This document shows, one piece after another, positions 2,735-24,124 of a DNA stretch of 24,124 nucleotides. A program made the translations under genes and the position numbers. Position 1 is the first letter of the stretch, and each line of letters opens with the position of its first letter. The stretch lies in IMG/VR virus record IMGVR_UViG_3300003321_000505, positions 1-24,124 of that record. One strand, 5' to 3'. This DNA is from a virus. The notes below the pieces were generated by a model that was not told the DNA's origin, did not search any database, and saw only the letters and a list, made by a program, of their open reading frames with translations.

Positions 2735-3273
2735 AGGATTACGAGTGTACCGTCGACTTTCAAAACTCCCTCGATCGTGAGACCTCCGGCAATTACCCCG
2801 TTTCGGTTCGGCGGAACGTGAACCGTATCAGTCGCGGGGATAATGTTCCTGGCAAAGCCATCGTGATCGAACAGGCTCAGCCATCCCGTTTCGGTCATGT
2901 AGGGCTTGGTCGCGGTAGACGGGACGTCATCCGTCGTGAGCTCGACCTCGCCTTGCTTGCCATTGACCGACGTAACGCCCGTTACGCCTTGCGTCGTATC
3001 TGTTGCGCTCGGGCTCGTGGTCGGGGTCGAAGTGGAGGCGGCTGTTTTCCCCAGGGGCTGGTTGTTGGGTTGGGTGATGCGTTCATTGACGGACCGCTCC
3101 GCGTCCTGCCTCCATTGTTCCATCGCCTGATCGTGCGCCTGAAATATCTGATTGAGCGTACCGCCCTTAGCCATGGCATCGCTCAGCTTGGGCATTGGAC
3201 GTAAGCGGAAGTCCGCCGCGAAACTGGAGGGGGTCGCGGCTACGAGGGCCTCGAAATTGGGATTGGTAGCCAT
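2731..3273 (-). CDS. Putative tail fibre / appendage protein
   Basis: A 180-aa protein. The first ~70 residues are helical (KLSDAMAKGGTLNQIFQAHD, then QWRQDAERSVNERI) and could form a trimeric attachment stalk. A Thr/Ser/Pro linker follows (ASTSTPTTSPSATDTTQ). Next comes a short GVTSVNGKQGEVELTTDDV segment, which matches the 'v.sVNGktG.VtLt..dv' element common in tail-fibre shafts. The C-terminal IIPATDTVHVPPNRNGVIAG and GLTIEGVLKVDGTLVIL look like a small beta-strand cap. The ATG at 3273 overlaps the upstream stop as TGATG; a TTG six bases earlier is less likely. Its neighbour genes are the nozzle-like and 119-aa fibre-like proteins, which supports a tail appendage role. Confidence 0.6.
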   Translation of the reverse strand: MATNPNFEALVAATPSSFAADFRLRPMPKLSDAMAKGGTLNQIFQAHDQAMEQWRQDAERSVNERITQPNNQPLGKTAASTSTPTTSPSATDTTQGVTGVTSVNGKQGEVELTTDDVPSTATKPYMTETGWLSLFDHDGFARNIIPATDTVHVPPNRNGVIAGGLTIEGVLKVDGTLVIL

Positions 3274-5279
3274 CAGCAATTCTTGCTCCGGGCGCTCGCT
3301 TTAATGCCCACATTGAGCTTGGAGAATAGGGCGTCCCCTCCGACTCCGGTGATCGAAAGCTCGATATAGAGAAATCGTCCCTCGCGCCAGAGCTGCCACA
3401 ACGCCCGCCCGTCCGGAACTGTGCCGTCTGCTAGGTGCTGAGCTTGATCCTTGGCGGTGTTGTATTTGATGGGCTTGCCCGAGTGCTGGAAAAACACGAT
3501 CCCCTCTCCGGTGTTTGGGTCTGCCGGCTCGGAAGAGATCCCGACTCGGAGCACAACATCGAGCGGATCGTCCTGTGGCTGAGGAACGAATTTGAGCTCG
3601 ATCTTTTCCATGCAGACCTGTGAGTCCTCCGCGAATGCCGGCGCAAACCGGATTATCGAGGTGATCGGCTGCAGGAGGTAACTCCCGATTGCCGCGGTGT
3701 AACCATTCGAGTCCGTGGTCCCGGTCGCGGAAAAATTTTGACACTGTTCCCGGTAGAACACCTCCCCGAGCTCTTTGATGCACCAGTCGACCGAAGAGGC
3801 CGCGATTAGCTTGGGCGGGACTTTGCACGTCCTGCATATCTCATCCAGGCGCTCGCTCCCGAGCAAAGCGCAAAGGCTGTGAACCGACGAATTGGGCTGA
3901 GTGTAGTCCTCGACGTGAGATCCCGTTGTGTACTCGAGGGGGACATTGGTGTAAATGTGGTCGGGTGTAAAAGGCGCTGATCCGGATGGAAGCACGCGCG
4001 GAAGCTCCTGGGTGCCGTACGGGAAACCGGCGGAGGCCAGGCCAGCAAGGCTACAAATCTCATTCTCGACGATAAAGTCCCTGATCGTCGGGACGTCCAT
4101 CGGGGAAAACTGTTCGAACACTAAAAAGCCGTCGTCGACCACGTCCGCAACCTCATACTTCTTATTGATTCGAAGCGTATAGTCAGGGCAATGGTTGGTC
4201 GCCTGGTCAGTGGCAACAGAGTAAAGGACCTCGTCCCCGTAAGCGGTCGCGACGTGAGCGTCACAAGCGTTTGAGTCGATCCTCTGCATGAGGACCGCAC
4301 TCGCGCGGTGCAACCATTCAGGTCGATCTGGTGCAACGTAGTACTGACCAAAGAAGTAAATGCCGTCATGTCCGACGTAGCTATGGAGATCATTGATCGG
4401 GCAAAGGGTATTTGGATAGGCCAGGACCCCCTTGAGCTCGTTCTTTTCCCCATCGTAGACCCGCCGAAAATCGAAAGATTGGTCCCCTCCGACCGCTATC
4501 ATCTCCCAAACTCCATGAGTCGTATAAATGAACATGGAGTTGCCGACGGGGGCGGCCGCTAAAATCTGCTCGTAAGTGAAGAGGTCCTTAAATCCGGTGA
4601 TCGATTGGAGGTTGGCAGGATCAAACCCGAGCGGGTTGTTGTAATCCGACCAAACGATCCGGTACGGGACGTTCTCCTGCTCCATGGTCACGTTGGCCAG
4701 GAACACCACATTTTTCCACGAGAAGATCACCTTCGCTCGGGAGAGCTCAATCGTGTCGAGATCGTCGATGGTGTAGAGGAACTTTCCGGTGTCTGGATCC
4801 GCCGCCTGCTCGAGCCGGAGGTATTGGACCTTATCGAAATTGTTGGTCAGCACGATATAGTCCCCCACCTGGGCGGCGTGAAACCGCGGGGCTGTGGCAT
4901 CCTGAGAAAAGGTCCCGCCGAATCCGGACCCGAGGATCCGATACCCGCCGGAATGGACGTCGAGCTGAGCAACGGTCTGCTGTGTCGCGGCCAGGAGCGA
5001 GCGCACTCCATTGGTGCTGATCGCCTGGAATAGCATTGTCACCGGCTGGCGTCCGGAGGCGCTCGAGAGCGCAATTAACTGATCGTGAAAATCTGAATTA
5101 TTGTAGTTGGCCACGCTGAGCAGCTTTTGATAGCCGCTCCCGCGCCGGAGGACCCCCGCCCCAACGGTCTGAAGGTTTTGGCGCATGCGCACGCCTCCGG
5201 AGTCCAGCAAGTCCGGAATGGAACGGAGATCCAGCGTGCCGGTTAGAGGACTAATCGGTTTGATCGGTGCCTGTGGCAT
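3273..5279 (-). CDS. Tail tube nozzle-like protein (T7 gp12-type position)
   Basis: A 668-aa large beta-rich protein. The N-terminus has GGVRMRQNLQTVGAGVLRRG, resembling the 'qsRnv.....G..rRpG' opening of podovirus tail tubular B/nozzle and phage-stabilisation proteins. Mid-protein elements such as YIVLTNNFDKVQYLR, SWKNVVFLANV, RIVWSDYNNPLGFDP and NSMFIYTTHGVWEM repeat the pattern of a beta-propeller that lines the tail channel. VGHDGIYFF followed by the R-x-x-W-L-H segment fits the later blades. In length it is close to T7 gp12-like proteins (about 700-800 aa). The ATG at 5279 overlaps the collar-gene stop as TAATG. It is rich in Cys in the C-terminal half (for example LDEICRTCKVPPK), which is unusual. 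Family assignment rests on pattern and position. Confidence 0.65.
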   Translation of the reverse strand: MPQAPIKPISPLTGTLDLRSIPDLLDSGGVRMRQNLQTVGAGVLRRGSGYQKLLSVANYNNSDFHDQLIALSSASGRQPVTMLFQAISTNGVRSLLAATQQTVAQLDVHSGGYRILGSGFGGTFSQDATAPRFHAAQVGDYIVLTNNFDKVQYLRLEQAADPDTGKFLYTIDDLDTIELSRAKVIFSWKNVVFLANVTMEQENVPYRIVWSDYNNPLGFDPANLQSITGFKDLFTYEQILAAAPVGNSMFIYTTHGVWEMIAVGGDQSFDFRRVYDGEKNELKGVLAYPNTLCPINDLHSYVGHDGIYFFGQYYVAPDRPEWLHRASAVLMQRIDSNACDAHVATAYGDEVLYSVATDQATNHCPDYTLRINKKYEVADVVDDGFLVFEQFSPMDVPTIRDFIVENEICSLAGLASAGFPYGTQELPRVLPSGSAPFTPDHIYTNVPLEYTTGSHVEDYTQPNSSVHSLCALLGSERLDEICRTCKVPPKLIAASSVDWCIKELGEVFYREQCQNFSATGTTDSNGYTAAIGSYLLQPITSIIRFAPAFAEDSQVCMEKIELKFVPQPQDDPLDVVLRVGISSEPADPNTGEGIVFFQHSGKPIKYNTAKDQAQHLADGTVPDGRALWQLWREGRFLYIELSITGVGGDALFSKLNVGIKASARSKNC

Positions 5280-5938
5280 TAGCAAATAATGTAAACGTAA
5301 ACCCCAAGCGCGGGCGGGATGATGTCGAAAGGATCAGCATCATCCTTGAGTTTCACGTTGGTTGGTCCCTGAGTCCCGAGGCTCCCCGCATCACCGAATG
5401 TGGTCCCGTTTATCTCGAGCGTCTCAATCGATACCCTGACCCCTGTCTGCGCATCCCCATCGTCCTCAGTAATGGTGACGTCCAGTGAACCCTGGTTTGT
5501 CGGGCCTAGCGTTACCTGGTCGGCCCCCAAAGCTGTTCCGACCGACACCGTGCCGGCATTGTCGAACGTGCCGATCCCGACCGGGAATTTTGCGCGAAAA
5601 TCCGGCAGCTTGAAATTGCCGGCGCTCGCGGTCCCATACGTCGCCCCGATGGCCGCATAGAGGTCCGGATAGGTTGCCTGTGCCACTTGTCGCCCGTCGC
5701 AAAGGAGTCGCGTGCCGTCCTCGGTTTGGGTACACCCCGAGAAGATGAAGTCCCCCGGCCGCGCGACTTGGTTCACAAAAGCCTTTGTCGGGTTGCCGGA
5801 GCTATCGAACAAATAGTTCATCACCTTCCAAATCAGAACCGGCAATTTAAGAAGTGTGTTTACAAAATTCGAGCAAAGCGAGGAGCTTGGATCACTTATA
5901 CACGCTTTGAACTCCGCGGGAGTTACGGGGCTTGACAT
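5279..5938 (-). CDS. Phage tail collar domain protein
   Basis: A 219-aa protein with a tail-collar (microcystin-dependent-protein-like) domain at about res 61-122. Landmarks are GDFIFSGCTQTEDGTRLLCD, YPDLYAAIGATYG and GNFKLPDFRAKFPVGIG, which match the family's 'GWllCdGq...i....yp.Ly..iG..yG......F.lPdlrgr.p.G.g'. The C-terminus is beta-rich and ends with DIIPPALGVYVYIIC, close to the 'n..Pp...l.yiIk' end of collar fibres. The first 50 residues carry a hydrophobic stretch (FVNTLLKLPVLIWKVMNYLF). The start follows a clear AAAGGA ribosome site 4 nt upstream. The GIY-YIG gene overlaps its first 16 nt. It likely forms a short tail fibre or receptor-contacting piece. Confidence 0.8.
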   Translation of the reverse strand: MSSPVTPAEFKACISDPSSSLCSNFVNTLLKLPVLIWKVMNYLFDSSGNPTKAFVNQVARPGDFIFSGCTQTEDGTRLLCDGRQVAQATYPDLYAAIGATYGTASAGNFKLPDFRAKFPVGIGTFDNAGTVSVGTALGADQVTLGPTNQGSLDVTITEDDGDAQTGVRVSIETLEINGTTFGDAGSLGTQGPTNVKLKDDADPFDIIPPALGVYVYIIC

Positions 5939-6489
5939 GATTCCTTTCTCTTACCCCACGCTCGGACCATTGCCTCGACGTGAGATTGGCTTTTGGGTTT
6001 GCGGTTTGACTCTGAAATCTTACGCCTCGTCTCGGCGCTGACCGGTCTGCCCACGAGTCCCCTCCCTATATTGCGCCGGTGCTCCACGGTCAGTCTCTTG
6101 CCTGAGTGAGCTATCGAGATTTTGGATTTTGTCGCTTCGCTCAGCTTTTTCCCCTTTTTAGAGTTGGCTATTTTTTCTCGTGTACGCTCGGTGAGAGCTC
6201 CTCCGGAACCGACATTATAGCCATTTGGGACCAAGCTTCGTTCGCTGTTAATCCAAAATTCTTCTCTGGCGTTGACGTTAGATGGTGAAAGTCCCGACTC
6301 AAGGACGTCCACACGAAAATTTTCCCATCCGTACTTTCGGATAGCACGGCAAACGATCATGCTGCATCCGTTTTTTGCAGAGGATCGGTGTGTTATTATT
6401 CTGCGGTCCACTGTGCAGATGGTCTGCCCTACGTATTTCCTGCCGTTAAGCAGGTTCGTGATCCGATAGATCGTGTAAAGGCTGGCCAT
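5923..6489 (-). CDS. GIY-YIG homing endonuclease with NUMOD3-like repeats
   Basis: A 188-aa free-standing GIY-YIG endonuclease. The catalytic module has YTIYRI (res 5-10) and KYVGQT (18-23) as the two halves of the signature, Arg29 and His34, KYGWENF (53-58), Glu76/Glu77 in NAREEFWI as the likely metal-binding acid, and NGYNVGSGG (89-97). After that come lysine-rich repeats of the NUMOD3 type (KIANSKKGKKLSE, KISIAHSGKRLT, RRNIGRGLVGRPVS, RRKISESNRKPKS) that contact the target DNA. It sits 3 nt after the LamG-like gene and overlaps the collar gene start by 16 nt. Its DNA is visibly more AT-rich than its neighbours, which fits recent acquisition. Confidence 0.9.
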   Translation of the reverse strand: MASLYTIYRITNLLNGRKYVGQTICTVDRRIITHRSSAKNGCSMIVCRAIRKYGWENFRVDVLESGLSPSNVNAREEFWINSERSLVPNGYNVGSGGALTERTREKIANSKKGKKLSEATKSKISIAHSGKRLTVEHRRNIGRGLVGRPVSAETRRKISESNRKPKSQSHVEAMVRAWGKRKESCQAP

Positions 6490-6492
6490 CGG

Positions 6493-7428
6493 TTAAAATG
6501 CGATTCCCCACAAGTTCGCGAGATATCTCCGAACCTGGGCCCGCTCATCGTTAGTTAGCCGTCTGCTCCAAAGGTAAAGGCCCGCGATATTGCAATGGGT
6601 GTAATTGAACGATCCGCCAAGCCCGTAATTGATTGCCCCGCCGAGGGTGTAAGTGGTCTCGAGCGTGCCCCTGGATCGAAACGTGTATTGCCCCATCCCG
6701 AACGAGGCAAAATTATTCGAATTCATCCAGGCCTTGAATGAGCTCCCGTCCGCCGCTGCCGCCAGGTTGTAAGCGGCAAATCCGGCTGATGGGTCAATAG
6801 GGCTGACTCCCAAGTCAAGATTGCCAGTCATCAGAGTTTGGTCGGTTCCGTTGGCAAAGGGCTCCATCCAATGGCCCGTTGTGCCGACGCCGGCAAAGAT
6901 GGATCCGACTGGCTGGTTGGGTGAGTTGCTGACCCAAATAAAAAACGGGCTGAAAATGAAAATGTTGGCTGTGCGTTGATAGCTGAAAACCGAGCCCTGA
7001 CCCGCGGGCGGTGGATTGGCGTCCAGCTTGTAGATTACGATGATCTCCAGGCCGGTCAGCCCAGAGGGAGGAATGAAGAGGCCCGCGGAACTTACCAAAA
7101 CCTGGTTGCCTCCGAACCGCACCGTCGCATGCCCGTTGAGCTTTCGGGTCTGGTCGACCGTCGGGGAGATGTCCGATCCACTGATGCCGCCAGCATTCCC
7201 GACTCCGTGCGTCATGTGATGCAGCAGACCCGTCTTGTCGGTCCACTGGTGGATATCGGTCCCGTCGCCGCTGCCGTCAAAATCGGAGCTCTCGAGCCAT
7301 TGGATGAGGTCCTCAGTAACAAGGCTGTCGGCGTCATTGTCCCCGCTGAGCTCAGCCCTGGAGATAACGGAGGACGCCCGTACGATCGGGAAAGTTATGG
7401 GCTCGGACTTCTCATCGACGATAATCAT
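6493..7428 (-). CDS. LamG / concanavalin A-like domain structural protein
   Basis: A 311-aa protein with a LamG-like jelly-roll. After a 40-aa leader comes LIQWLESSDFDGSGDGTDIHQW, matching the 'l..WLdasd....dGt.v..W.D.sG' entry of this fold, then LNGHATVRFGGNQVLVSS. The exit is NIAGLYLWSRRLTNDERAQV and RRYLANLWGI, the usual 'iaEl.iynraLs..er..v..YL..kwgi' end. Such domains bind sugars or proteins. Its ATG overlaps the stop of the adaptor fusion gene by 4 nt (ATGA). Because it lies in the tail block, a receptor-binding or decoration role is inferred. No glycosidase active site is apparent. Confidence 0.7.
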   Translation of the reverse strand: MIIVDEKSEPITFPIVRASSVISRAELSGDNDADSLVTEDLIQWLESSDFDGSGDGTDIHQWTDKTGLLHHMTHGVGNAGGISGSDISPTVDQTRKLNGHATVRFGGNQVLVSSAGLFIPPSGLTGLEIIVIYKLDANPPPAGQGSVFSYQRTANIFIFSPFFIWVSNSPNQPVGSIFAGVGTTGHWMEPFANGTDQTLMTGNLDLGVSPIDPSAGFAAYNLAAAADGSSFKAWMNSNNFASFGMGQYTFRSRGTLETTYTLGGAINYGLGGSFNYTHCNIAGLYLWSRRLTNDERAQVRRYLANLWGIAF

Positions 7429-9008
7429 TTGCTCAGCTCAAGCGTGTCGATCAGTTCGCCGTCTTTGGTCCAGAACTCCGCTACGAAGCTGGTGTCTTTG
7501 GCCGTCATGCGCAGAGCTCCGGCCTTGGCTGCGTAGCTGCTCTGAGTCTCTGCCGAGGCGTAAATGCCCAACGGCTGGAACGGACCGAGTCCTCCCAGGC
7601 CATCGTTAATCACCGGCAGACCGGAAATGTCGAGCCGCTCGTAGTTCAGCGCCTGGCTGCAAATGACCAAGTCCGCGCCCCACGTCTTGAACGGCCATTG
7701 CAAATTCGCGTCGCTGTAGAGCGAACCATAGGGGGCCTTGTCCATCACCACGATTTTCCAGATCGCCGCTGATGCTGCGAGGCCCGCCTGGAGCCAAAGT
7801 CCTTGCGTGCTACCGGCGGTGATGCCGTCGGGCTCGCTCGAGCTCGTATCCAGCACGAAAAATTGACAGTCCCCGATTGTGGCCGAGTAGTACCGCTTGT
7901 TGCCGCCAAGGGGGAAGTAGCCTTTGAACGTGGTCAGGGCGTCGAGGTCCCAATCGAATTGCGTCGGTATGGCCCAAAGCGCATTGCCATCGTCGGACCC
8001 GTCCCCTTTGTCTCCGCTGTAGGGGTCAAGGTAATCGTGGAATTGGTCGCCCGCGGTCGCGTCGTAGTCGGTCAGGACGTGATTGATCCAGCCAGCTCCA
8101 AAGATGGCCGATGGTCCCCAGTTCCGGACGAGCCTGCCGACGTCGTCGAGATCCTCGCCCGTGGTCGATCCGTTGCCCAGGTGTGCCAGGACCAAATCGG
8201 TAACGCCGGCAATGAAGGCATCGTCGCTGATTTCCGCGCAGAGCCGGTTTCGCTCGTTGTGCTGCGGGAACTCGTCGCGCGTCTTGGTCCGCTCTCGGCA
8301 CTCGTGGATGAGGTCTCCGAGCGACTCGTCGAAAAGTCCGTTATGGCTAACGGGATTATGAAACGCGAGGGCCTCCTGCATGGAGCCGTAATCCCGCTCG
8401 TGCGCATACTGGACGAACAGCTTGACCGCCGCTCGGTACATCACCTCCGGATTGATGAGATCGTTGTCCTCCCAATTGGTTTTGATGCCCTTCCACTCGA
8501 TGACTACCAACTCATTGCTCTGGATCCAGGGAGCAATGTAAATGTTGTTCTGGTAAACCGCCCAAATCGCCGTACGAGCTCGGCCGTACAGGCTGTCATT
8601 GTCCGCGCTTGCGTAGCCGAAGCCCACCGGTAGCTTGCCGGCCTTGGTGAAGTCGGGCAGGGGCGAAAGATACAGGTTGCGGGCCCAGGATTCGGGCTCC
8701 GGCCATTGGCGTTGCCGGACGTAAACGGGGTCCGTGAAATTTTCGTTAGCGACGGTAAAAACCCTCTGAACAATACCGCGCGGGGCGGGGATGACAGTCA
8801 TCCCGTTTTTGTAGAAGGTCTTTTCGAACTTGATGACGTTGACGTTGTCCTCCCGCTCGCAAATCACCCACTTGGCGATCTGCGCAAACGCCTCTTGAAA
8901 GTGAGCGTTATGGGCGTTGACGAGGTTTTCCGGCTCGCCGCTGGCCCAAATTTGAGCCCGAATGTCAGCCTTGAGCTGGCCTACGGTTATTGTTTTGTCG
9001 CGGGACAT
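7425..9008 (-). CDS. Tail adaptor-like protein fused to a degenerate calcineurin-like phosphatase
   Basis: A 527-aa two-part protein. Res 1-255 look like a head-to-tail adaptor (position of T7 gp11): helical start, then FYKNGMTVIPAPRGIVQRVF, NIYIAPWIQSNELVVIEWKG, and a helical PEVMYRAAVKLFVQYAHERD. Res 265-527 follow a secreted-type metallophosphoesterase: VGRLVRNW, FHDYLDPYSGDKGDGS, GNKRYYSATIGDCQFFVLDT, SEPDGITAGSTQGLWLQAGL, LQWPFKTWGADLVI, NYERLDISGLPVINDGLGG and EFWTKDGELIDTLELSK. The catalytic signatures are altered: GD-Y-G to LGNG (277-280), GDNNY to GAGWI (304-308), GNHDW to TQFDW (349-353), HHxPY to DKAPY (423-427) and GHDHTYER to SQALNYER (451-458). Enzyme activity is therefore unlikely. 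The start overlaps the 178-aa gene by 44 nt and is the only ATG. The family patterns quoted are from memory. Confidence 0.75.
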   Translation of the reverse strand: MSRDKTITVGQLKADIRAQIWASGEPENLVNAHNAHFQEAFAQIAKWVICEREDNVNVIKFEKTFYKNGMTVIPAPRGIVQRVFTVANENFTDPVYVRQRQWPEPESWARNLYLSPLPDFTKAGKLPVGFGYASADNDSLYGRARTAIWAVYQNNIYIAPWIQSNELVVIEWKGIKTNWEDNDLINPEVMYRAAVKLFVQYAHERDYGSMQEALAFHNPVSHNGLFDESLGDLIHECRERTKTRDEFPQHNERNRLCAEISDDAFIAGVTDLVLAHLGNGSTTGEDLDDVGRLVRNWGPSAIFGAGWINHVLTDYDATAGDQFHDYLDPYSGDKGDGSDDGNALWAIPTQFDWDLDALTTFKGYFPLGGNKRYYSATIGDCQFFVLDTSSSEPDGITAGSTQGLWLQAGLAASAAIWKIVVMDKAPYGSLYSDANLQWPFKTWGADLVICSQALNYERLDISGLPVINDGLGGLGPFQPLGIYASAETQSSYAAKAGALRMTAKDTSFVAEFWTKDGELIDTLELSK

Positions 9009-9997: not shown

Positions 9998-11839
9998 TCA
10001 GTACAGGTTAGAATAGGACGGGTTAGCCGTGTAGCCGACCGTTGTCGGAGGTCCAGCCGCAACACCCATGATCCAAACTGAGTTAGCGGGGCACTCCACG
10101 ATTGCGGTACAGGTCTCACTGATGAGGGTGATCTCTTCAGTGATGTTTTCCATCGTGCAGGCAAAAGTTGGGTCGATTCGCGCCAATTGCTCGATCTCGC
10201 CCAAGGTCCGGACCTTACGGTTAGTGGCGATCATACCGGGGTAGATCGTACCGCCCTTAGGTCCAGGCTTGCCAATATCCAGAATGAGCATCATGCGCCC
10301 CGCGGAGTCGATATTCTCCGTTGTGAAGGCGTTTAGGATGTCATCGAAGAACTCGTGAGTAACGATGGCAATGGTCAGGCCGGCGGGGAACTTGACCTTG
10401 TACTTCCGCCAGTAGAAGCCGAGCTCGTTGGAGCCCTCCTCGATGTTGATACGGACAATGTCGCCGTATTCCTTGCGGTAGTAGCTGATCATTGCCGACT
10501 CGAAGTCAGCCGCCGTCTGGTTATCGGTGAAGATATCGATGGTGTCGACAACCTTCCCCTGGCTCTTGCGAGCACGCATGATGTTGTAAATCTCCTTGAG
10601 TAACTCGTAGAGATTGAGGCTCTGGTTTTGCAAGTCGCGAACGCGGTCGCAAGCCAGGAGCTGCTCGAATACACCCACCATGTTGGCCCGATAGGCGATG
10701 ATTTTTCCGCCCGTGCCAGGGTCCACGCTTCCACCGGTTACCGTCAGGATCTGCTCGAGGTTCTGCCAATTGGACAGGGTTTGATTGGCGCTGATCTTCT
10801 TTCCATAGAAGAAGCTATTGAGCCAGCTCCGCTGCCAAAGTTCCTCGTCCTGGCGGTTACGCTCGGCCAGGTCCAAGTCACCGAATTGACGGAAGTACTC
10901 GTTCGACTCCATCAGGCGGGCGAAAACCTTCTTATATTCCGAGTCCACGCGCCGGCCTCGGCGGATGGTTTGGAACCAGAAGGGCACGCGCTTGCGGGGA
11001 TCCAACGTAGGCCGGTTATGGCACCAGCTCTCATAGTCGTTGACGTTGTTGCCGCCGTTGAGCAGCACGCCAGCGGTCGGAGTCGGATCGTATGGGGTCG
11101 CCGAGCCGGCATTTTCAGAGGTGATGAGGACGTCAACATAGCTGAAGTCCGCGGCCACTTCCGAAGCCAGCACTTTCCATTGACCGATAACGGTTTGGCC
11201 GCCAATGCGCCCGAAAATGTGGACGCGGTCTTTGTCGACAAACCAGTTCGGATCCATGTCGATCCCGTAACGGCTGACCACGCGGACAACTCGGTCGGAC
11301 CCTGCTCCGAGGGCTTTGTCAGCCACGGTGAGGGGACCGGTGACCAAGGCGGTATAGGCCGAGTTAGCGAAGCCCGTCGAGATCGCCCAAAACTCTTTAT
11401 TCACAACGGAGTCCTGGCGCCCGAGCACGAATGGCTTGAGCAGCGACGGACCGCGGTCAACTTTCTCGTAAGAGAGCAAGCTGCCCATGTTCCGCTGGCT
11501 GGACATAACCCAGTCGTACATGCCGTTGACCTTGATTCCGCAGGCTTTCATTTCGAAGGCCGTTCGAAACCAAGAGTCCATATCGGCAAAAAGCCCGTTC
11601 GGTCGGAACAGGTTTTCAAGGTCCGTAGGTGTGAGGTGAGCCACACTCGCCCGCGTGATGGTGCCGTGCGTGTCGAAGTTATTCGACACAACCACTGTGC
11701 AGGGAGTGTCCTGAAAACGCCGCGACGTGCTCGTTACCGCCAGAAACGGCAGAGCACAAAGGGCGCTGAGAGCCCACATGGGGCACAGAAGGAACGCGGC
11801 CAGGAAGACTAGGCCGATACCAACAGTTTTTCGTCTCAT
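9998..11839 (-). CDS. Major capsid protein candidate with an N-terminal hydrophobic segment
   Basis: A 613-aa protein placed where the major capsid is expected: after portal and scaffold, flanked by its own terminator and with a structured leader. The body looks like a soluble virion protein, with DLENLFRPNGLFADMDSWFR, RVPFWFQTIRRGRRVDSEYK, GGKIIAYRANMVGVFEQLLA and VKFPAGLTIAIVTHEFFDD. I recognise no specific capsid family and cannot show the HK97 fold. The first ~37 residues are basic then strongly hydrophobic (MRRKTVGIGLVFLAAFLLCP), like a signal anchor, which is odd for a capsid. The ATG at 11839 follows GGAAAG at short spacing. A GTG at 11695 is an alternative start that would remove the segment. 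The gene is unusually long for a capsid. Confidence 0.6.
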   Translation of the reverse strand: MRRKTVGIGLVFLAAFLLCPMWALSALCALPFLAVTSTSRRFQDTPCTVVVSNNFDTHGTITRASVAHLTPTDLENLFRPNGLFADMDSWFRTAFEMKACGIKVNGMYDWVMSSQRNMGSLLSYEKVDRGPSLLKPFVLGRQDSVVNKEFWAISTGFANSAYTALVTGPLTVADKALGAGSDRVVRVVSRYGIDMDPNWFVDKDRVHIFGRIGGQTVIGQWKVLASEVAADFSYVDVLITSENAGSATPYDPTPTAGVLLNGGNNVNDYESWCHNRPTLDPRKRVPFWFQTIRRGRRVDSEYKKVFARLMESNEYFRQFGDLDLAERNRQDEELWQRSWLNSFFYGKKISANQTLSNWQNLEQILTVTGGSVDPGTGGKIIAYRANMVGVFEQLLACDRVRDLQNQSLNLYELLKEIYNIMRARKSQGKVVDTIDIFTDNQTAADFESAMISYYRKEYGDIVRINIEEGSNELGFYWRKYKVKFPAGLTIAIVTHEFFDDILNAFTTENIDSAGRMMLILDIGKPGPKGGTIYPGMIATNRKVRTLGEIEQLARIDPTFACTMENITEEITLISETCTAIVECPANSVWIMGVAAGPPTTVGYTANPSYSNLY

Positions 11840-13478: not shown

Positions 13479-13787
13479 TCAGTTCTCCTGTTTGGTGGTT
13501 ACCGGTCGGGGTGTGAGTTGAGTCAGCTCTGGCGTGAAATTGCGATCCGCGAATTGAAGCATGATTTCCCATGCCTCGGCATACTTGCGGCCCTCATCGG
13601 CCTTGCGCTCGGCCTCGATTTTGTCGGGAGCCGTCCCGCGCATCATCAGATTGCCCGACTCAGCGGCGTAAGCTGCCGCTTTGTTAGCGAGCCAGCTCAC
13701 GAAGGTATCGAAGGCGGGATTTTTGAGCCAATCGCGGACGGCCTTAGCTTGGACCTCCGGCAAAGGCATGGGGTTAAGATGGATCAC
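13479..13787 (-). CDS. Small helical protein between portal and scaffold
   Basis: A 102-aa protein of unknown family, predicted mostly helical: EVQAKAVRDWLKNPAFDTFV, then SWLANKAAAYAAESGN and a charged helix (KIEAERKADEGRKYAEAWEI). I prefer the GTG start at 13787. It overlaps the preceding stop as GTGA and follows GGGGGA at good spacing; an ATG at 13769 is the alternative. Small genes of this kind are common between portal and scaffold in podoviruses. A head-assembly role is inferred from position only. Confidence 0.6.
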   Translation of the reverse strand: MIHLNPMPLPEVQAKAVRDWLKNPAFDTFVSWLANKAAAYAAESGNLMMRGTAPDKIEAERKADEGRKYAEAWEIMLQFADRNFTPELTQLTPRPVTTKQEN

Positions 13788-14158
13788 GATTTCCCCCGTT
13801 TCAGTCTGCCTTTTTTGGAGGCATCCAGCATGTTATCAACCTGGGTCCCCTCGAAAAAGTGAGAGAATCGTACACATAGGCCCCTGTCGCATCTGTGGAG
13901 GACGTTGGCTCGCGGCATCCTGCCTGTTTCAAGGAAAAATGCGGCTCTAGGTGCGTTGATCTGACCTTTTCCTGACCAGTGTGCAACATATCCGCGGGGA
14001 TGGAGTCTGCGCGATCCGCTGCCGGTCCAAAGCCAGCATCTTCCAAGTCTTCCGTTCTTGGGTCCGCGTTTATTTACCTTTTCGAAGAACCTCTTCCGGA
14101 AAAGTTTAAGAGCCTCCGACTGGGATAGGTCCCTGTATGGGTGAGGGTACTGATTCAT
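13784..14158 (-). CDS. HNH endonuclease, probably degenerate
   Basis: A 124-aa protein of the phage HNH type usually written 'CWlWtG...GYg...AHR...L..G..p....vlH.CDnp.CvNP.HLf.GTq.dNm.Dm..KGR'. Visible matches are CWLWTGSGS (41-49), GYVAHW (57-61), NVLHRCDRGLCVRFSHFFEG (85-104), GTQVDNMLDASKKGR (104-118). Key positions differ: AHR is APR (69-71), CDN is CDR, and CVNP is CVRF. The usual His and Asn are therefore missing, and nuclease activity is doubtful. Its first 53 nt overlap the portal gene out of frame, and its stop overlaps the next start. A former homing endonuclease in decay is the simplest reading. Confidence 0.75.
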   Translation of the reverse strand: MNQYPHPYRDLSQSEALKLFRKRFFEKVNKRGPKNGRLGRCWLWTGSGSRRLHPRGYVAHWSGKGQINAPRAAFFLETGRMPRANVLHRCDRGLCVRFSHFFEGTQVDNMLDASKKGRLKRGKS

Positions 14159-16484
14159 TCGCTGGATGCGGGGCGCCGGAGATCGCCTGAGCCAGGGTAG
14201 CGATATCCTGCTGATTCTTGGTTGCCTGATCGGCCAATGGCTTAATGACCTTCTGGACCTGGCTCAGCACAGCCTGAGTAACCTGCTGCAACTGCTGTTG
14301 TGCGGCCTGCTGTTGCTGCTGTGGCGATGCGCCGGCCGGGGTGACGTCGCGCAGCGCGAAGTCCCGGTCCAGGCCCGCGAGCTGGCCGATCTTGTTAGCC
14401 AGCTCAATCGCCTGCTGTGATCCGATGGCCTGGGCGGTTATCGGGTTGGCCATCAGGGTTTGAACGAGCTGCGCCATGACTTGGGCAGTTTGCGCATCGT
14501 TCATTCTGTCATCCCCGTCTCGCGTAGCCGCGATCTCCCAAAGCTCAATCGCCGTGTTCTTTTTCTTCACCCGGATCCGTCGGTGCCGGTCCATCTCGAG
14601 GTGAGCTTCATCTTCGCCGTCGAGGGTGAATCCCATTTTCTCGAGAACGGGCCTGGAGAGCGGGATATCGCTGGCAATGTGCGCATAGATATCCTCGTCG
14701 CCGTAAGCCATGAGCCCGTTGTAGAGCTGGCGCTTCCAGGCGTCCCGGTAAATGTCAACGGGCGTGCTCGTGAAGAGCAGCCGCGTGGACGTCGATTGGG
14801 CGATGTTCCGGACCTCCTCGCGCGTCTGCTCGTGACTGGCCGCTTGGGCTACTTCATGGCTGCTCATCACGAGCACTCGCTCGAGTACGTCGAGAATGGT
14901 TTTCAGCACATTGGTTAGCTCTGCGGTGTTGCCCTTGGGCAGCGCATGCGGGATAACCGCCTCTTGGATTTTGTTCTGCGCCCGCACGGCCTGCTTGCCG
15001 CTGAACGGAACAAAGTTGAGGCTCCGGAAAATCTTTTCACCGAGGTTTTTGATGACGCTCTTGCCCTCTGCGGTGATTTGGTCCTCGTCGATAAACGTGA
15101 TGTTGGACAGGTTTTGCTTCGCCGTTAGGATGATCTGCGTGAGCACGTTCGAAAACTGATCCTGAAACGGGAGGATCTCCAGGCTGAGGCTGGCGTTGTT
15201 GGTCCGGCTCTCATCGGCGTCATAGCCCAGGTAAAGGATCGGGCAATATGGCAGGGGCTCAGCGTAGAGGAACGTGGAGATATCGCCGGCAATCACGAAA
15301 CGGAACCAAACGGGCTCATCGTAGTCCCCCAGTCCGTTTTGCTTGGGGATGAGCTTCTCGAAATGCTCAGTCGTCAGGACGCCCTGATCAAGGTGGTCAG
15401 TCCCGTAATAGAGGTACGCGAGCTGTTTCTCGCGATCCATGTCCCCTATCCCTGCCCCGGTTTGTGCCAGGAGGGTGTTGCCGTCGTTTTTGGAGGTCTG
15501 CAAGACGGGCATATCAAGCGTACACGCGGAATAGACGGTCGCGAAAAAGGTCCGGTGGTCGACGACAAGGGAGTTTGGCCCGACTGAAATTTGGTCTTTG
15601 TTCCAGAAATTGGAGTTGTAGATATCGCGGTACCGGCGGATTGACCAATACCCTCCGAACTCGCATCCGGTGTCATAATTGTAGGTGTAGGGGCCATGGT
15701 TCAGATCGCGATAAAATCGGGTTGGGTGCGGATGGTGGTAGCGGAGGCCCTCTTTAACCGTCACCTTGATTTTCTCCCCGACCTCTTTAGCCCGACCGAT
15801 GGCGACGTCCTTCTCGTCGGCAGATTTCCATTGCTCCTCATGGTGCCAGGACTCTTTCGGGAACTGGAAACACCATCCGTAGTGAAGCATTTTCAAAACG
15901 GCCTGCTTCATCACGTCATAGTAACCGTACTGGTTACTCATCACTTGGATCCGGTCGGTGATGGCCCCGCACTTGAGCCGGTTGACCGCGGTCGCTTTGA
16001 CGGGGTCAAACTTGAAAAACGGAATGAGCCGGCGGTCATTCATTATTTTCGCCCAACGGATCGTCACATACGCGCGAACCAATGGGACGAAAATGTTATA
16101 GAACATCGGCAGGTTGAACGTCTTTTTGCCTGTCGGTATGCCGGTCCTGGGGTCGAGCTCCTGATCGATGAGGTGAGTCAGCCCGAGGTCTGTCACCATC
16201 TTCTGGACGTCCTCGTCCTCGATCGAACCGCCCTTTTCGATGAAGTAACCCAGGAGCGTAGGACTGATCTGCCGGAAAGGGGTTTCCCACGCGAGGTCAA
16301 GGGCGTGATAAATCCGGTAATCCATGAAGTTGCGGTTCATCCCCTCCTGAATGCGGGAGCGGATGCGCTGCCAAAGGGCTACCGGTCCCTCCGAGGCGTT
16401 CCACGTGAGCGGATTGCCGGACAGCTTGCTCCGCAGAAACTCCGGGGTGATTCCGCGGGCCTTGAGTATGTCGAGATCAACCAT
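14106..16484 (-). CDS. Portal protein
   Basis: A 792-aa protein next to the large terminase gene, the standard place of the portal, which forms the dodecameric DNA entry ring. The central part has portal-like features: RAYVTIRWAKIMNDRRLIPF, a run of helical and wing-like strands, EILPFQDQFSNVLTQIILTA and AQNKIQEAVIPHALPKGNTA, where a long helix lines the channel. The C-terminal 100 residues contain a Gln-rich stretch (ASPQQQQQAAQQQLQQV) that should form a coiled barrel. The length fits large podovirus portals. The ATG lies 1 nt after the upstream stop (TGACATG). The degenerate HNH gene overlaps its 3' end. Confidence 0.75.
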   Translation of the reverse strand: MVDLDILKARGITPEFLRSKLSGNPLTWNASEGPVALWQRIRSRIQEGMNRNFMDYRIYHALDLAWETPFRQISPTLLGYFIEKGGSIEDEDVQKMVTDLGLTHLIDQELDPRTGIPTGKKTFNLPMFYNIFVPLVRAYVTIRWAKIMNDRRLIPFFKFDPVKATAVNRLKCGAITDRIQVMSNQYGYYDVMKQAVLKMLHYGWCFQFPKESWHHEEQWKSADEKDVAIGRAKEVGEKIKVTVKEGLRYHHPHPTRFYRDLNHGPYTYNYDTGCEFGGYWSIRRYRDIYNSNFWNKDQISVGPNSLVVDHRTFFATVYSACTLDMPVLQTSKNDGNTLLAQTGAGIGDMDREKQLAYLYYGTDHLDQGVLTTEHFEKLIPKQNGLGDYDEPVWFRFVIAGDISTFLYAEPLPYCPILYLGYDADESRTNNASLSLEILPFQDQFSNVLTQIILTAKQNLSNITFIDEDQITAEGKSVIKNLGEKIFRSLNFVPFSGKQAVRAQNKIQEAVIPHALPKGNTAELTNVLKTILDVLERVLVMSSHEVAQAASHEQTREEVRNIAQSTSTRLLFTSTPVDIYRDAWKRQLYNGLMAYGDEDIYAHIASDIPLSRPVLEKMGFTLDGEDEAHLEMDRHRRIRVKKKNTAIELWEIAATRDGDDRMNDAQTAQVMAQLVQTLMANPITAQAIGSQQAIELANKIGQLAGLDRDFALRDVTPAGASPQQQQQAAQQQLQQVTQAVLSQVQKVIKPLADQATKNQQDIATLAQAISGAPHPANESVPSPIQGPIPVGGS

Positions 16485-16863: not shown

Positions 16864-18426
16864 ATGCCGCTCGATACACACGGTCACTGGTATCCGAATT
16901 TGTTCGGGAGACAGCTCGAGGTTTTCAATAATTTCTGCCGCGCTCTGCTGGTTTGTGGACCGCGAAAAAGCGGCAAAACCTGGGCTGTTCTGCATAAGAT
17001 CGCCCGCCATCTTTGGGAGACAAAGGGCGCTCGAGTAGCGATGTTTTCCCGCACGCTGAAAAATTCAAAGGAGGGCGGGACTTGGTCCGATTTGCACACG
17101 ATTGTTTTGCCCGAATGGATCAACGCCAAGATCGGTTTCAAGTACACAACCAAGGGCGCTGAAGGGAAGCCTGGGCCCAAAGTCGACGGGCAGACGCGAA
17201 CCCCCTACTTCCGAATCCGCAACGCGCACGGGGGCGAGTCCGAGCTTATGCTCTTCTCTCTGGATTACGATCCGGACATTGAAGCCAAGCTAAAGGAACA
17301 GCGTTTTAGCATGATTTACTTTTCGGAGCTCTCCAAATTCAAGGATCGCCGGATCCTATCGGTGGCGCTCCCGTCACTCCGCATGCCTCACTTGAAAATG
17401 GATGAGCAGCAATGGATCGCGGACACCAATCCGGGCGAGGAGGGTGACGCCTCGTGGATCTACGAAGTGTGGTACGTCGAGCGCATCCAGACCTATCAGC
17501 AGTATTTCGACCGCAACAAAGAACGGGGGCGGCCGTGTTTGCCCGAGCAGCTCTTTTACACGTTCCAGAAGGGGCTCGGGCTCATCGAAATCAAGCCCGA
17601 GGAAAACCCGTTTCTCGATCCGGCTGAGCTCGACGAGCTCAAGGCCACTTACTCATATGACGAGGGACTTTATGAGCGGTACGTCAATGGCAAATGGGTC
17701 TACGGGGAAGGGGACGCATCCATCCATTTCAAGGGTAAGTTTCACCCGCTCCGCCACGTGGTTGGGGGAATTGAGTCACCGGATCAAAAGGACCACGTTT
17801 ACGCCAATCCCCATCCCAATAGCTTCGAGCTGATCACCGGATGGGACCTTGGCGACACAAATCACGCCGCGGTGATCCTTGATCGCGTGTACATCGGAGG
17901 CAAGAGCCACTACATCGTTTTGGACGAGCTCGAGGTCTTGGGCGAAGAGGTGAGCAATGAGGATTTTACCGAGGAATTCATGGGGCTCATTGTCAACCTC
18001 GAGGAGACCGCCGGCAAAAAGTTCGGCCTGGACCGCTCTTGGTCGGACCGGTCGGCTCTCGAGAAATATTCCGCCAGCGGTGACACCTACGCATACCTCC
18101 AAGTCTACGCAGCCAGCAACAAGCGGATTTACCTCCGGGCCTGTCCCAAGCCAGCCGGCTCAGTGCGCACGCGCGTCCAGCTCGTGAAATCACTCCTTCA
18201 CAACAACCGCCTGCATATCTCGGCTCACTGCAAAGGGGTCATCCGAATGATGAAGGAGCTAAAGAAGGGGGCGGGGAAACTCGACTTTGTGGCTCAGGAT
18301 GAGAACAAGCACATTTTTGACGCGCTCACGTACGCCCTGCTGATGGAGTGCGCGGAGGAGCTCGAACTCATGCCCGCGGTGACAGAGGGGCCCAGGGATA
18401 GCATTGCTCTGAGTATCCGGCTTTAG
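16864..18426 (+). CDS. terL: Terminase large subunit
   Basis: A 520-aa DNA-packaging motor that cuts concatemers and pumps DNA into the prohead. The ATPase half has Walker A GPRKSGKT (32-39), Walker B MIYFSEL ending in catalytic Glu155 (150-156), and coupling motif ADTNPGEEG (186-194). The nuclease half has GWDLGDTNHAAVIL with Asp328, the later DRSWSDRSALEKY (390-402) and HIFDALTYAL with Asp486, the acidic triad region. Length is normal for TerL. It is the only plus-strand gene and is convergent with the HNH-AP2 gene that ends at 18514. The 87-nt gap 18427-18513 holds only small inverted repeats (for example CGTGA-TCG-TCACG) and no clear terminator. No partner small subunit is obvious. Confidence 0.92.
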   Translation: MPLDTHGHWYPNLFGRQLEVFNNFCRALLVCGPRKSGKTWAVLHKIARHLWETKGARVAMFSRTLKNSKEGGTWSDLHTIVLPEWINAKIGFKYTTKGAEGKPGPKVDGQTRTPYFRIRNAHGGESELMLFSLDYDPDIEAKLKEQRFSMIYFSELSKFKDRRILSVALPSLRMPHLKMDEQQWIADTNPGEEGDASWIYEVWYVERIQTYQQYFDRNKERGRPCLPEQLFYTFQKGLGLIEIKPEENPFLDPAELDELKATYSYDEGLYERYVNGKWVYGEGDASIHFKGKFHPLRHVVGGIESPDQKDHVYANPHPNSFELITGWDLGDTNHAAVILDRVYIGGKSHYIVLDELEVLGEEVSNEDFTEEFMGLIVNLEETAGKKFGLDRSWSDRSALEKYSASGDTYAYLQVYAASNKRIYLRACPKPAGSVRTRVQLVKSLLHNNRLHISAHCKGVIRMMKELKKGAGKLDFVAQDENKHIFDALTYALLMECAEELELMPAVTEGPRDSIALSIRL

Positions 18427-18513: not shown

Positions 18514-18996
18514 TCACGCGGACCGCTCCCAAAAGTTAGGATTAGCGAATTCCCCAAATTGTTCAAGAGCTGCTGAATCGTAGGCCATTGCGGCCTCTTC
18601 TTCCGTAGCGAACCTTCCGATTATTCGTCCCTTTCCGAAAACCTTTATTTGCGCCCTCCACTTTCCCCTGGCCGCGTCCCACGTAACTCCCTTGAACGGG
18701 CTCGTGCATCCTTCTCTCTTTCGAGAGTTGGCCTGCTGTTGGGAATGGGTTGCGCCCCTTAAATTGCCTCTTCTGTTGTTCAACCCGTCGCGGTCCCGGT
18801 GATCGACCTGACCGCGTGAATGGAGAATTTCCTTGTGCATTAGGACGGTTTGGCATTTGCCGTCTTTCCAAAATGTTCTAACGGCGTACCACGTGCGCCT
18901 GACCTTTTGCGCCTGCCATTTCCATTGGGATAGCCATTCGAAGTCCGCGTCGTCAACAACGGCAGATTTACCTTGGGTCAAAGGTATTAGCTCCAC
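18514..18996 (-). CDS. HNH-AP2 homing endonuclease
   Basis: A 160-aa endonuclease. It opens with ELIPLTQGKSAVVDDADFEW, carries the MHKEIL element (53-58) and the HNH core VDHRDRDGLNNRRGNLR (64-80), and ends with an AP2 domain (res 99-154: SPFKGVTWDAARGKWRAQI, EEAAMAYDSAALEQFGEFAN). I chose the GTG at 18996. It follows AGAGG at good spacing, overlaps the preceding stop by only 10 nt, and gives the family's usual N-terminus; the longer reading to 19137 lies inside the regulator gene. Unlike its relative at 46-579, it retains the MHK histidine. It is the last gene of the right arm and converges on the terminase gene. Confidence 0.85.
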   Translation of the reverse strand: MELIPLTQGKSAVVDDADFEWLSQWKWQAQKVRRTWYAVRTFWKDGKCQTVLMHKEILHSRGQVDHRDRDGLNNRRGNLRGATHSQQQANSRKREGCTSPFKGVTWDAARGKWRAQIKVFGKGRIIGRFATEEEAAMAYDSAALEQFGEFANPNFWERSA

Positions 18997-19331
18997 GATG
19001 GCCTCTGCAAATCTTCGATTAGACGCTTGTACATTCGTCGCTGTGATGGGCTGCTCCTCCTCATAAACTCCATTTTTCCCTGGCGCACAAGTCGATTGTC
19101 CCGACGCTCGTGTGGTGCCATGAGGTTTACCCCGCAACCGGTCGCAAATGCCTGGATGGTCTCGAGCTTCACCTTATTCCAGTTTCGGAGCTGGGATATC
19201 TTGTTGACCATCGCCCGCGAGAGCCCGGAGGCCATTGCGATATCGGCATTGGACAACGGATGGGTGCCGCGCCGAGCCAGGAGCCGGCATCGGGCGGGGG
19301 GGAAGCGGTTTACGAAATCCAGCAGCGTCAC
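18987..19331 (-). CDS. Cro/XRE-like helix-turn-helix regulator
   Basis: A 114-aa DNA-binding protein. The helix-turn-helix is at about res 26-70: PLSNADIAMASGLSRAMVNK, ISQLRNWNKVKLETIQAFAT, GCGVNL. This is the pattern of short phage/bacterial regulators that read 'ls..dIa.asGls...v..is...sW..v.l.ti..f..aCgvdl'. A basic tail follows (RRDNRLVRQGKMEFMRRSSP). I chose the GTG at 19331 because it overlaps the previous stop as GTGA, the local rule; a GTG at 19361 is possible. It lies between a hydrophobic 119-aa protein and the HNH-AP2 gene. It may control phage late or lysis genes, but no operator is visible. Confidence 0.65.
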   Translation of the reverse strand: MTLLDFVNRFPPARCRLLARRGTHPLSNADIAMASGLSRAMVNKISQLRNWNKVKLETIQAFATGCGVNLMAPHERRDNRLVRQGKMEFMRRSSPSQRRMYKRLIEDLQRPSWS

Positions 19332-22229: not shown

Positions 22230-24124
22230 TTATCGGTATCCGCCTCCAAGGGCCTGCCTGAGCGTCTGCACTCGGTTGTACTCATTTTGCCCGTCGCTCG
22301 TGCTTAACCCCTGGCGAAAACTGGTGTAGGAAATCGTGCTGGCGCTCGGCTCGTAGTCCGCGCTGATCGTCGGAATGTTGGAGGCGAAAACATCCACCGT
22401 TCCATTCAAATAAGTTACGGTCCTTGTCGTGCTGTTGTTCCCGATCTGAGCCCAGGCCGATCCCGAATTGGCGAAGAATAGTCGATGATCCGTGCTGCTC
22501 ACGCGGTTTCCGCTATAGAACCCATTGCCCGGAGAAGGATGCACGCTCACGCCCGATGGACTTTGGCCAAGTCCTGAGTTGGCTGCTCCGGAGGCAATGT
22601 CCGAGGCGTTCATCTGCAAGCCAAAACTGGCATCAGTCGCAACGACATAGCTTCCGCAATCCCGGTATGCACCCGAGGTAGTTGCGTACCCGTAGAGCGA
22701 AATTCCAGCGTTGTCCACGCTCACGCCAGTCGAGGCGTTGAAGCCGGTGTCGAGGTATTTGTTCGATCCGTTTCCGGTCAGGCCGTTCACACTGAGATCG
22801 CCGGAGACGAAGTTATGATTTACCCAAAGCACGCTCCCCGATCCAGGCAGGAGCGGGGTGAGAGCTGCGGTCAAACTGTCAGGGACGTAAGTATTAACGA
22901 CTACTTCTTTGGAGCTAAGTCCATCGGTTACCAGTCCATTCCAGAATTGATCCTGTGCCCAAATCGTATTCGAGGAAAGCACGGACGCGCCATTGACCGC
23001 GCATTGCACAACCCAGTTGCTTACGGTTGTGGTTGTGACCGTCGCAAGCTGGATGGAGGAGGATCCATACGTGCGTCCGGAAAGTGTCGCGAAACATTGG
23101 TAGGTCCCGAAGTCGGAGAGAGCGGCAGTCCCGACCGTGTACGAGCTTTGGGTAGCGTTAGCGATGTTGACCCCGTTTTTCTGCCACTGGTAGGAAGGCG
23201 ATCCGGCGGCAGGGGCGTAGAGGGTTTTGCTATTGCCGATGAGGACCACACTGTTCGTTATGTCGGTAGTGAATGGCTTAGCTGCCCCGCCTCCCTTCGT
23301 CGTAAGGAAGTTTTCGACAAGCCAAAAATAATTAGAGGAGTCAGCCGCGCTGAAGCTTGACGGAGCGTACGAGTAATAGGAAATGGTGTTGGTCGTCAGT
23401 CCTTGTATGCCGGCATTGCGCTCCGAGATGGCAAACAGAGTGACCGCCAAGTTAAAATCTGGACTCGCTTTCGTGTTTGCCGTTGTGCCCTGAGCATATA
23501 GTCCGTGCGCGAGCGTGGAGCTTGCGATATAGACGTCGAGCTCGGTCGAATTAACCCTCGTGGTTGTCATGTACCCGGGCACAGCCGTATTGGTGAATAC
23601 TTGAGACGCACCCGTGCCAAATGCTCCGCCCTCGCCAACTCCGCTGTAACCTGCGGTCCCAAAGATCCCGTTATTCGGAGTCGCAAAGTCATCGTAGCCC
23701 CCAAAGCAAAATTTACCCGCCTCCACTCCCGCGGTGTACATGTAGATCGTCTGAGCCGCGCTATTGTAGCTTGGGGACTCGTCCGAAAGTCCAGGATGAC
23801 CATTGACCCCAGGGTTCAGGTACTTCGTGCTCCCGTCTCCCTTCATGCCGTTGATGCTCACGTCCGCATCGACAAAGTTGTTGTTCATGTTGGCCACGGG
23901 ATTGAAGAAAATGAAGGTGTTGCCTCCGTTTATCTGCCACATTCCCTTGATGGGCGTCAGGGCATCTTTGAGCGTGGTTCCACCCAGGGCGAGGATCATC
24001 GGGACTTTACTCCATAGGTTGGTCGTGACCATGCCGTCGACGAAGTTGACAACCGCGTTCGAGTTTGCGGATGATATATTTGTGCCGCCCGCCTGAACGA
24101 TGGCCCAGTTGTAGGTGTACTCCC
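22230..24124 (-). CDS. LamG-like / Ig-like / LamG-like repeat protein, 5' end outside window
   Basis: The frame is open from the window edge to the stop at 22230, at least 630 codons. The ATG at 24032 is internal: the codons upstream read YTYNWAIVQAGGTNI, matching the NWVVQCAVNGAS that opens the second repeat. Two copies of a beta-rich, ConA/LamG-like domain are visible. Numbered from 24032, copy 1 reaches about res 250 and copy 2 spans 339-600. Paired landmarks are NGMKGDGSTKYLNPG (61-75) with NGLTGNGSNKYLDTG (416-430). Between them is an Ig-like domain (about 261-333; YQWQKNGVNIANATQSSYTV, SDFGTYQCFA). Such proteins bind surfaces or glycans, so a fibre or adhesin role is likely. It is followed by small membrane-protein genes. 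Confidence 0.7.
   Translation of the reverse strand, partial: EYTYNWAIVQAGGTNISSANSNAVVNFVDGMVTTNLWSKVPMILALGGTTLKDALTPIKGMWQINGGNTFIFFNPVANMNNNFVDADVSINGMKGDGSTKYLNPGVNGHPGLSDESPSYNSAAQTIYMYTAGVEAGKFCFGGYDDFATPNNGIFGTAGYSGVGEGGAFGTGASQVFTNTAVPGYMTTTRVNSTELDVYIASSTLAHGLYAQGTTANTKASPDFNLAVTLFAISERNAGIQGLTTNTISYYSYAPSSFSAADSSNYFWLVENFLTTKGGGAAKPFTTDITNSVVLIGNSKTLYAPAAGSPSYQWQKNGVNIANATQSSYTVGTAALSDFGTYQCFATLSGRTYGSSSIQLATVTTTTVSNWVVQCAVNGASVLSSNTIWAQDQFWNGLVTDGLSSKEVVVNTYVPDSLTAALTPLLPGSGSVLWVNHNFVSGDLSVNGLTGNGSNKYLDTGFNASTGVSVDNAGISLYGYATTSGAYRDCGSYVVATDASFGLQMNASDIASGAANSGLGQSPSGVSVHPSPGNGFYSGNRVSSTDHRLFFANSGSAWAQIGNNSTTRTVTYLNGTVDVFASNIPTISADYEPSASTISYTSFRQGLSTSDGQNEYNRVQTLRQALGGGYR

Follow-up and report, generated by a model that had tools for sequence, protein, structure and literature searches.

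A phage adaptor-like protein carrying a phosphatase fold without metal ligands: a likely virion pseudophosphatase

The protein considered here is encoded by an environmental phage, in an IMG/VR virus record of 24,124 bases (this whole stretch of DNA is called the window below), and joins a tail adaptor fold to a phosphatase fold that has lost all its metal ligands. It is likely, with a probability of about 0.72, to be a virion pseudophosphatase of the tail neck, serving as a binding or structural module; its virion location, inactivity and binding are inferred.

The gene, its neighbours and the adaptor half

The gene occupies positions 7425..9008 (ATG at 9008, stop codon at 7425-7427) and encodes 527 amino acids. 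The original prediction, made from the letters alone, had described here a T7 gp11-type tail adaptor fused to a dead phosphatase domain; the open reading frame is real, and its strand, absent from that claim, is minus. IMG/VR was scanned with three queries, the whole protein, its C-terminal domain and its N-terminal domain, for close relatives first and then for the broad family, and homologues of the same length were found at 71-83% identity (L001/L003, L002 and L007). In the full-length AF2 model (pLDDT 84.9, pTM 0.54) two domains are separated by a low-confidence linker. All on the minus strand, the adaptor domain comprises residues 1-245 (8274..9008), the linker residues 246-270 (8199..8273; pLDDT below 50 at 246-269) and the purple acid phosphatase (PAP)-like metallophosphoesterase fold without metal ligands residues 271-527 (7428..8198). 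The first assignment rests on the full-length model and Foldseek matches in the PDB, the last on AF2, Foldseek and a profile HMM, and both folds are regarded as shown by computation.

The N-terminal domain contains helices at residues 9-20, 27-47, 189-207 and 225-241 and a beta fibre-dock-like part at 55-173. A helix bundle with a beta fibre dock is the layout of the T7 and SU10 adaptors (PMC6702177, PMC9509320), and the criterion of a T7 gp11-type adaptor, a four-helix bundle with a fibre-dock beta part, is met. Foldseek matches include the SU10 tail (7z47, E 6.1e-8) and structures of cyanophage A4 (9k09), GP4 (8jov) and KHP30 (7wmp), and the solved tail chain of the VP1 phage is also similar. 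No match of the window protein to known adaptor sequence families was found in Pfam or PHROGs. Since the match is structural only, the domain is adaptor-like by fold and is not a member of a sequence family, and the predicted adaptor identity held in this sense. The protein shares with the gp11 adaptors of T7 and SU10 the four-helix bundle, the fibre-dock-like part and, as far as gene order indicates, the location of the gene in a head-tail block, but it lacks a sequence match to known adaptor families and adds a whole C-terminal phosphatase-fold domain of ~260 residues.

The adaptor gene lies between the probable capsid and nozzle genes, an order matching that of a head-tail block. The probable nozzle or virion structural protein is encoded at 3273..5285 (minus strand; phrog_3287, E 3.3e-18). 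The probable major capsid gene (9998..11839, minus strand) is assigned by position and gene order and not by family, as it matched nothing in Pfam or PHROGs; related loci have a homologous-looking gene upstream of the adaptor. A probable portal of 792 amino acids (14106..16484, minus strand) is proposed from size and gene order, with only a phrog_332 match at E 0.22, and the terminase large subunit is encoded on the plus strand at 16864..18426 (PF03237, E 2.1e-9). The next gene encodes 311 amino acids (6493..7428, minus strand) and shares 4 bp with the adaptor gene at its stop; its product is LamG/concanavalin-like by eye, Pfam found nothing in it, and PHROGs gave a weak match to a virion structural protein (phrog_10356, E 4e-4).

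Other genes of the window may be mentioned. Four putative homing-endonuclease-type ORFs, judged by eye to be GIY-YIG-like and HNH/AP2-like, are scattered in the phage gene block on the minus strand (5923-6489, 13784-14158, 46-579 and 18514-19137). A large Ig-domain protein (22230-24032, minus strand), Hoc-like and matching the tail protein family phrog_3995, has a frame open to the contig end.

The phosphatase fold and the loss of its metal ligands

The AF2 model of the C-terminal domain (residues 271-527) has a pLDDT of 94.9 and a pTM of 0.92. Its closest solved structures are PAPs (1qhw, E 4.8e-12, TMq 0.69, Foldseek against PDB), followed by GAP50, Rv0805, GpdQ and VPS29, and the criterion of a double beta-sandwich metallophosphoesterase fold is met. 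The alignment given to AF2 included phosphatases with intact sites, ~31-39% identical to the window protein, so the predicted fold is partly informed by them. With such identity across the whole domain, another fold is improbable. An HMM built from 30 real bacterial homologues matched residues 279-524 with 157 bits, over profile positions 7-254 of 255; together with the predicted fold, this shows that the relationship to phosphatases is beyond chance. The domain shares the fold and near full-length sequence homology with PAPs and secreted calcineurin-like phosphoesterases (PF00149), and differs from them in lacking all seven metal ligands, in its fusion to an adaptor and in being probably non-enzymatic.

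The window protein is recognised by none of Pfam, PHROGs and NCBIfam, PF00149 included, so its recognition had to rest on relatives. Direct searches were equally poor: the window and L002 domains, compared with PDB by phmmer, gave chance matches only, tblastn of GenBank phages revealed no clear relative (MT837099, E 1e-7, for one intact homologue only), and a first genome scan with a ligandless alignment as query returned zero relatives. A PhoD-like identity (PF09423) was considered and rejected, the match being local and below threshold (E 0.07; 12.8 bits, where the cutoff is 27).

In another genome scan, 139 bacterial or archaeal stretches were found to encode relatives of the first row of the search alignment. 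The ligand set GD.G, GDNNY, GNHD, VxxH and GHxH is present in the 30 aligned bacterial homologues with few exceptions, namely a fragment lacking the first motif (L057), which is also the homologue with K for Y, and a second homologue with L for Y. Pfam assigns Metallophos to all five bacterial ORFs tested, and the N-termini of several homologues look like signal peptides by eye. An artificially composed phosphatase-like bait guided the choice of search patterns, helped to confirm candidates, and was used in one NCBIfam and one PDB search. Its own similarity to the window protein is excluded from the evidence, and all homology statistics quoted were obtained with real loci. Of the two genome patterns derived from the bait, one prescribes a His beside the VxxH ligand, and the bait used for tblastn confirmation holds all ligands; because both favour intact homologues, the bacterial sample is somewhat biased to intact sites.

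The metal ligands D, D, N, H, H and H and the PAP tyrosine are all absent from the window protein (0/7). The five motif replacements quoted in the original prediction were all present as claimed, on the minus strand. Asn279 (8172..8174) replaces the ligand Asp of GD(Y/F)G and is shared by the entire window clade. GAGWI at residues 304-308 (8085..8099) stands for GDNNY, the ligand Asp falling in a three-residue deletion and the ligand Tyr corresponding to W307. TQFD at 349-352 (7953..7964) replaces GNHD, with Q350 for Asn, F351 for His and the Asp retained; DKAP at 423-426 (7731..7742) replaces HHxP, with D423 at the VxxH ligand; and SQAL at 451-454 (7647..7658) replaces GHDH, both His ligands being gone (Q452 and L454).

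This loss is specific and does not reflect a general divergence of conserved columns: among the columns conserved at 80% or more in intact homologues, the window protein keeps 0/7 ligand positions versus 27/39 others (Fisher p 0.0009). Its histidines occur only at positions 33, 36, 203, 217, 222, 235, 250, 276, 310 and 324, and since none follows residue 324, the VxxH and GHxH ligands are not merely shifted. An assembly error was also considered as the cause and is ruled out, as the loss recurs in independent contigs.

The original prediction would have been refuted by another fold or by ligands at shifted positions together with activity. The predicted fold is PAP-like, which makes the former unlikely, and shifted ligands are excluded by the histidine positions. 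Its claims of a calcineurin-like fold along the C-terminal half (structure prediction, the HMM, PAP matches) and of a fold kept with every ligand lost (sequence, structure prediction, relatives) therefore held. In the profile search proposed for each half, the C-terminal domain was matched by the bacterial HMM, and the whole protein had no Pfam or PHROG adaptor match.

The adaptor-phosphatase family and its history

The fusion forms a widespread IMG/VR family, in which 14 lineages have intact ligands, four have lost them partly and nine have lost all or nearly all of them; a fusion peculiar to the window phage is thereby ruled out. The intact lineages (L100, L101, L102, L104, L105, L107, L108, L110, L112, L118, L123, L133, L141 and L148) include L101 without the Tyr ligand and L148, which aligns with K at this position. 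Intact fusions such as L100, L102, L104, L105, L107, L112 and L118 have a two-domain architecture identical to that of the window protein and, unlike it, keep the metal ligands. In L090/L105, L110 and L141, such an intact fusion also matches PF00149. These intact proteins are probably active enzymes, as inferred from ligand retention without activity data. Partial loss (L120, L121, L126 and L131) always affects the GNHD asparagine together with the first GHxH histidine. All or nearly all ligands are missing in eight fused domains (window, L001, L002, L007, L095, L098, L122 and L134), and in L145 (9980-12315) the ligandless phosphatase-fold domain is a separate ORF directly downstream of the adaptor. 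L099 and L142, from the wider clade of the window, have no such domain, and some lineages can therefore do without it. Standard annotation sees little of this family: the domains of the window and L098 escape Pfam, and none of the proteins tested has a PHROG match.

Some members show further peculiarities. In L145 the fusion is naturally split into two ORFs, which share only a few bases. The intact fusion L110:9998-12097 (IMGVR 3300011438_000014) has its adaptor domain divided by an insert in the same frame that is Hint/intein-like (PF13403, E 2.9e-8; PF14890, E 4.7e-6), and the ligandless domain of L134:9974-11860 has an extra insertion of ~75 residues before a QWPF-like motif.

The adaptor C-terminus behaves as a variable decoration site. 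According to Pfam, it carries chitobiase-type domains (CHB_HEX_C_1/Fn3_assoc) in L128 and L143, the only two loci where these are confirmed, and DUF5977 in L109, and an Ig domain follows the phosphatase domain in L141. The phosphatase-less adaptor of L142 is directly followed by a gene with Big_2 and VWA domains (L142:6194-7024), possibly an adhesin-like virion part. Other long C-terminal extensions replace the phosphatase on adaptors of the same family in L128, L132, L136, L138, L143, L144, L146 and L147.

It is shown by computation that the ligands were lost several times independently and the domain itself was preserved. In the tree with ligand columns left out, eight ligandless domains form the window clade with 98/93 support, and the ligand loss common to homologues, which the original prediction asked to be checked, was confirmed in this clade. 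A single origin of all losses was rejected (AU p 1.1e-9 in the C-terminal domain tree and 4.6e-6 in the N-terminal one), and each careful tree needs five changes of ligand state. The loss in L121 is clearly separate because L121 nests, fully supported, with L118 and L123, which are both intact. The groups were set by ligand state before tree building, and deep branches are weak in both trees. Loss, not regain, is in all likelihood the natural direction of change, the trees alone being no proof of it.

In the window clade, the ligand loss is old and the domain is under purifying selection, as also shown by computation. Between the window protein and its three closest relatives, dN/dS is 0.10-0.16 for the ligandless domain and 0.07-0.16 for the adaptor half, so that unconstrained decay is disfavoured. 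These values are approximate, as dS is ~1-2 and near saturation; against more distant members, the dN/dS of the C-terminal domain climbs to ~0.3, mostly faster than in the adaptor half. The criteria for a pseudophosphatase, intact-ligand relatives, a loss common to orthologues and purifying selection, are met. Clade members differ in the residues of the former metal site (at the VxxH position, D/E/W/Y/E/A/N), and Asn279 is the sole replacement common to all members; a single conserved ligand in the old metal pocket is thus unlikely. The Asp of the GNHD motif, D352, is retained in 7/7 clade members scored.

Proposed role, precedents and significance

In the proposed mechanism, a podophage-type head-tail adaptor carries a C-terminal PAP-like domain predicted to have lost the capacity to hold its two metals. 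If the analogy with solved adaptors applies, a ring of twelve copies, a number that is inferred, would surround the neck beneath the portal, with roughly twelve pseudophosphatase domains suspended from it by flexible linkers close to where the fibres attach. As most relatives retain the ligands, an active enzyme is inferred for the ancestral fusion; in the window clade, catalysis would have been lost and the folded domain kept by selection for binding or structure. Its contacts may be phosphate-bearing envelope groups, glycan groups or a neighbouring virion protein. The original prediction suggested recruitment as a structural or receptor-binding decoration: a structural or binding role is the limit of the data, and receptor binding is only an inference. 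The varied residues of the former metal site and the missing domain in L099 and L142 speak against the main reading. In our opinion, a binding role deserves a slight preference over that of a pure spacer, in the absence of binding data and of an identified target.

The rival closest to this reading is purely structural retention, with the domain as a spacer or rigid scaffold for neck or fibre assembly without host binding. It is supported by the conserved core alongside unconserved former active-site residues in the clade, and by VPS29, a rigid scaffold of the metallophosphoesterase fold without phosphatase activity (PMC3101248). However, the low-confidence linker argues against a rigid joint, chitobiase-type domains, as in carbohydrate-active proteins, occur on other adaptors of the family, and the domain is absent from some relatives; we place this explanation clearly below an even chance.

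The remaining rivals are all very unlikely. An enzyme with a metal-independent or rebuilt active site could be supported by the retained fold, strong purifying selection and the invariant D352, but all seven ligands are missing, no histidine remains beyond residue 324, and close relatives differ in their old-site substitutions. For a decaying remnant on its way out speak L099 and L142 without the domain and the stepwise loss in L121, L131, L120 and L126; against it stand a dN/dS equal to that of the adaptor half, the absence of frameshifts and stops in eight members, the conserved core and the confident fold. The domain could also be an inhibitor or decoy that keeps a phosphatase of the host or of a rival from its substrate or partner by sequestering the latter, either in the envelope or once the phage has entered. 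Such a role is a common fate of pseudoenzymes, but there is no direct evidence for it, and a position at the virion neck disfavours a cytoplasmic role.

For what became of the fold in the window protein, here preferred as a virion pseudophosphatase, the best precedent is VPS29 of the retromer (PMC3101248), a metallophosphoesterase fold used as a scaffold without phosphatase activity (Foldseek E ~1e-5). It differs in being eukaryotic and single-domain, with weak metal binding still detectable. VPS29 belongs to a separate branch of the metallophosphoesterase superfamily. Plasmodium GAP50 (3tgh, E 5.6e-11) uses the PAP fold as an anchor, but it is a eukaryotic membrane anchor, and its catalytic unit is described as intact (PMC4256932), so it is no clear pseudoenzyme. 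No adaptor-phosphatase fusion or phage pseudophosphatase was found in the open-access literature searched, subscription papers being outside the search. This is consistent with the original statement that no such case was known, although the implied singularity did not hold, the fusion being a family trait. In BFVD, the uncharacterised protein A0A6J5NEL2 aligns with the window protein over 538 columns, and the architecture may therefore already be in databases without a name. A structural alignment over 542 columns was also obtained with an annotated metallophosphoesterase of 866 amino acids, gp352 of Bacillus phage G (L156:24583-27183). Phage adaptors and pseudophosphatases are already known; what is new, within the reach of the searches made, is that the two are combined and that the loss is graded and recurrent.

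A bolder reading, for which the odds seem to us slightly below even, is that adaptors took up a secreted phosphatase of bacteria to decorate the virion, and that this domain was then converted several times independently to a dead binding protein. If this is true, one phage family records the transition from enzyme to binder stepwise, with a likely receptor-processing enzyme as its starting point. The best-known pseudoenzymes belong to eukaryotic signalling. A virion pseudophosphatase whose family still contains intact, half-degraded and ligandless members together would open this step to testing. The intact members, apparent virion-borne phosphatases on a tail adaptor, suggest that a phosphate-bearing surface structure may be processed or recognised at infection.
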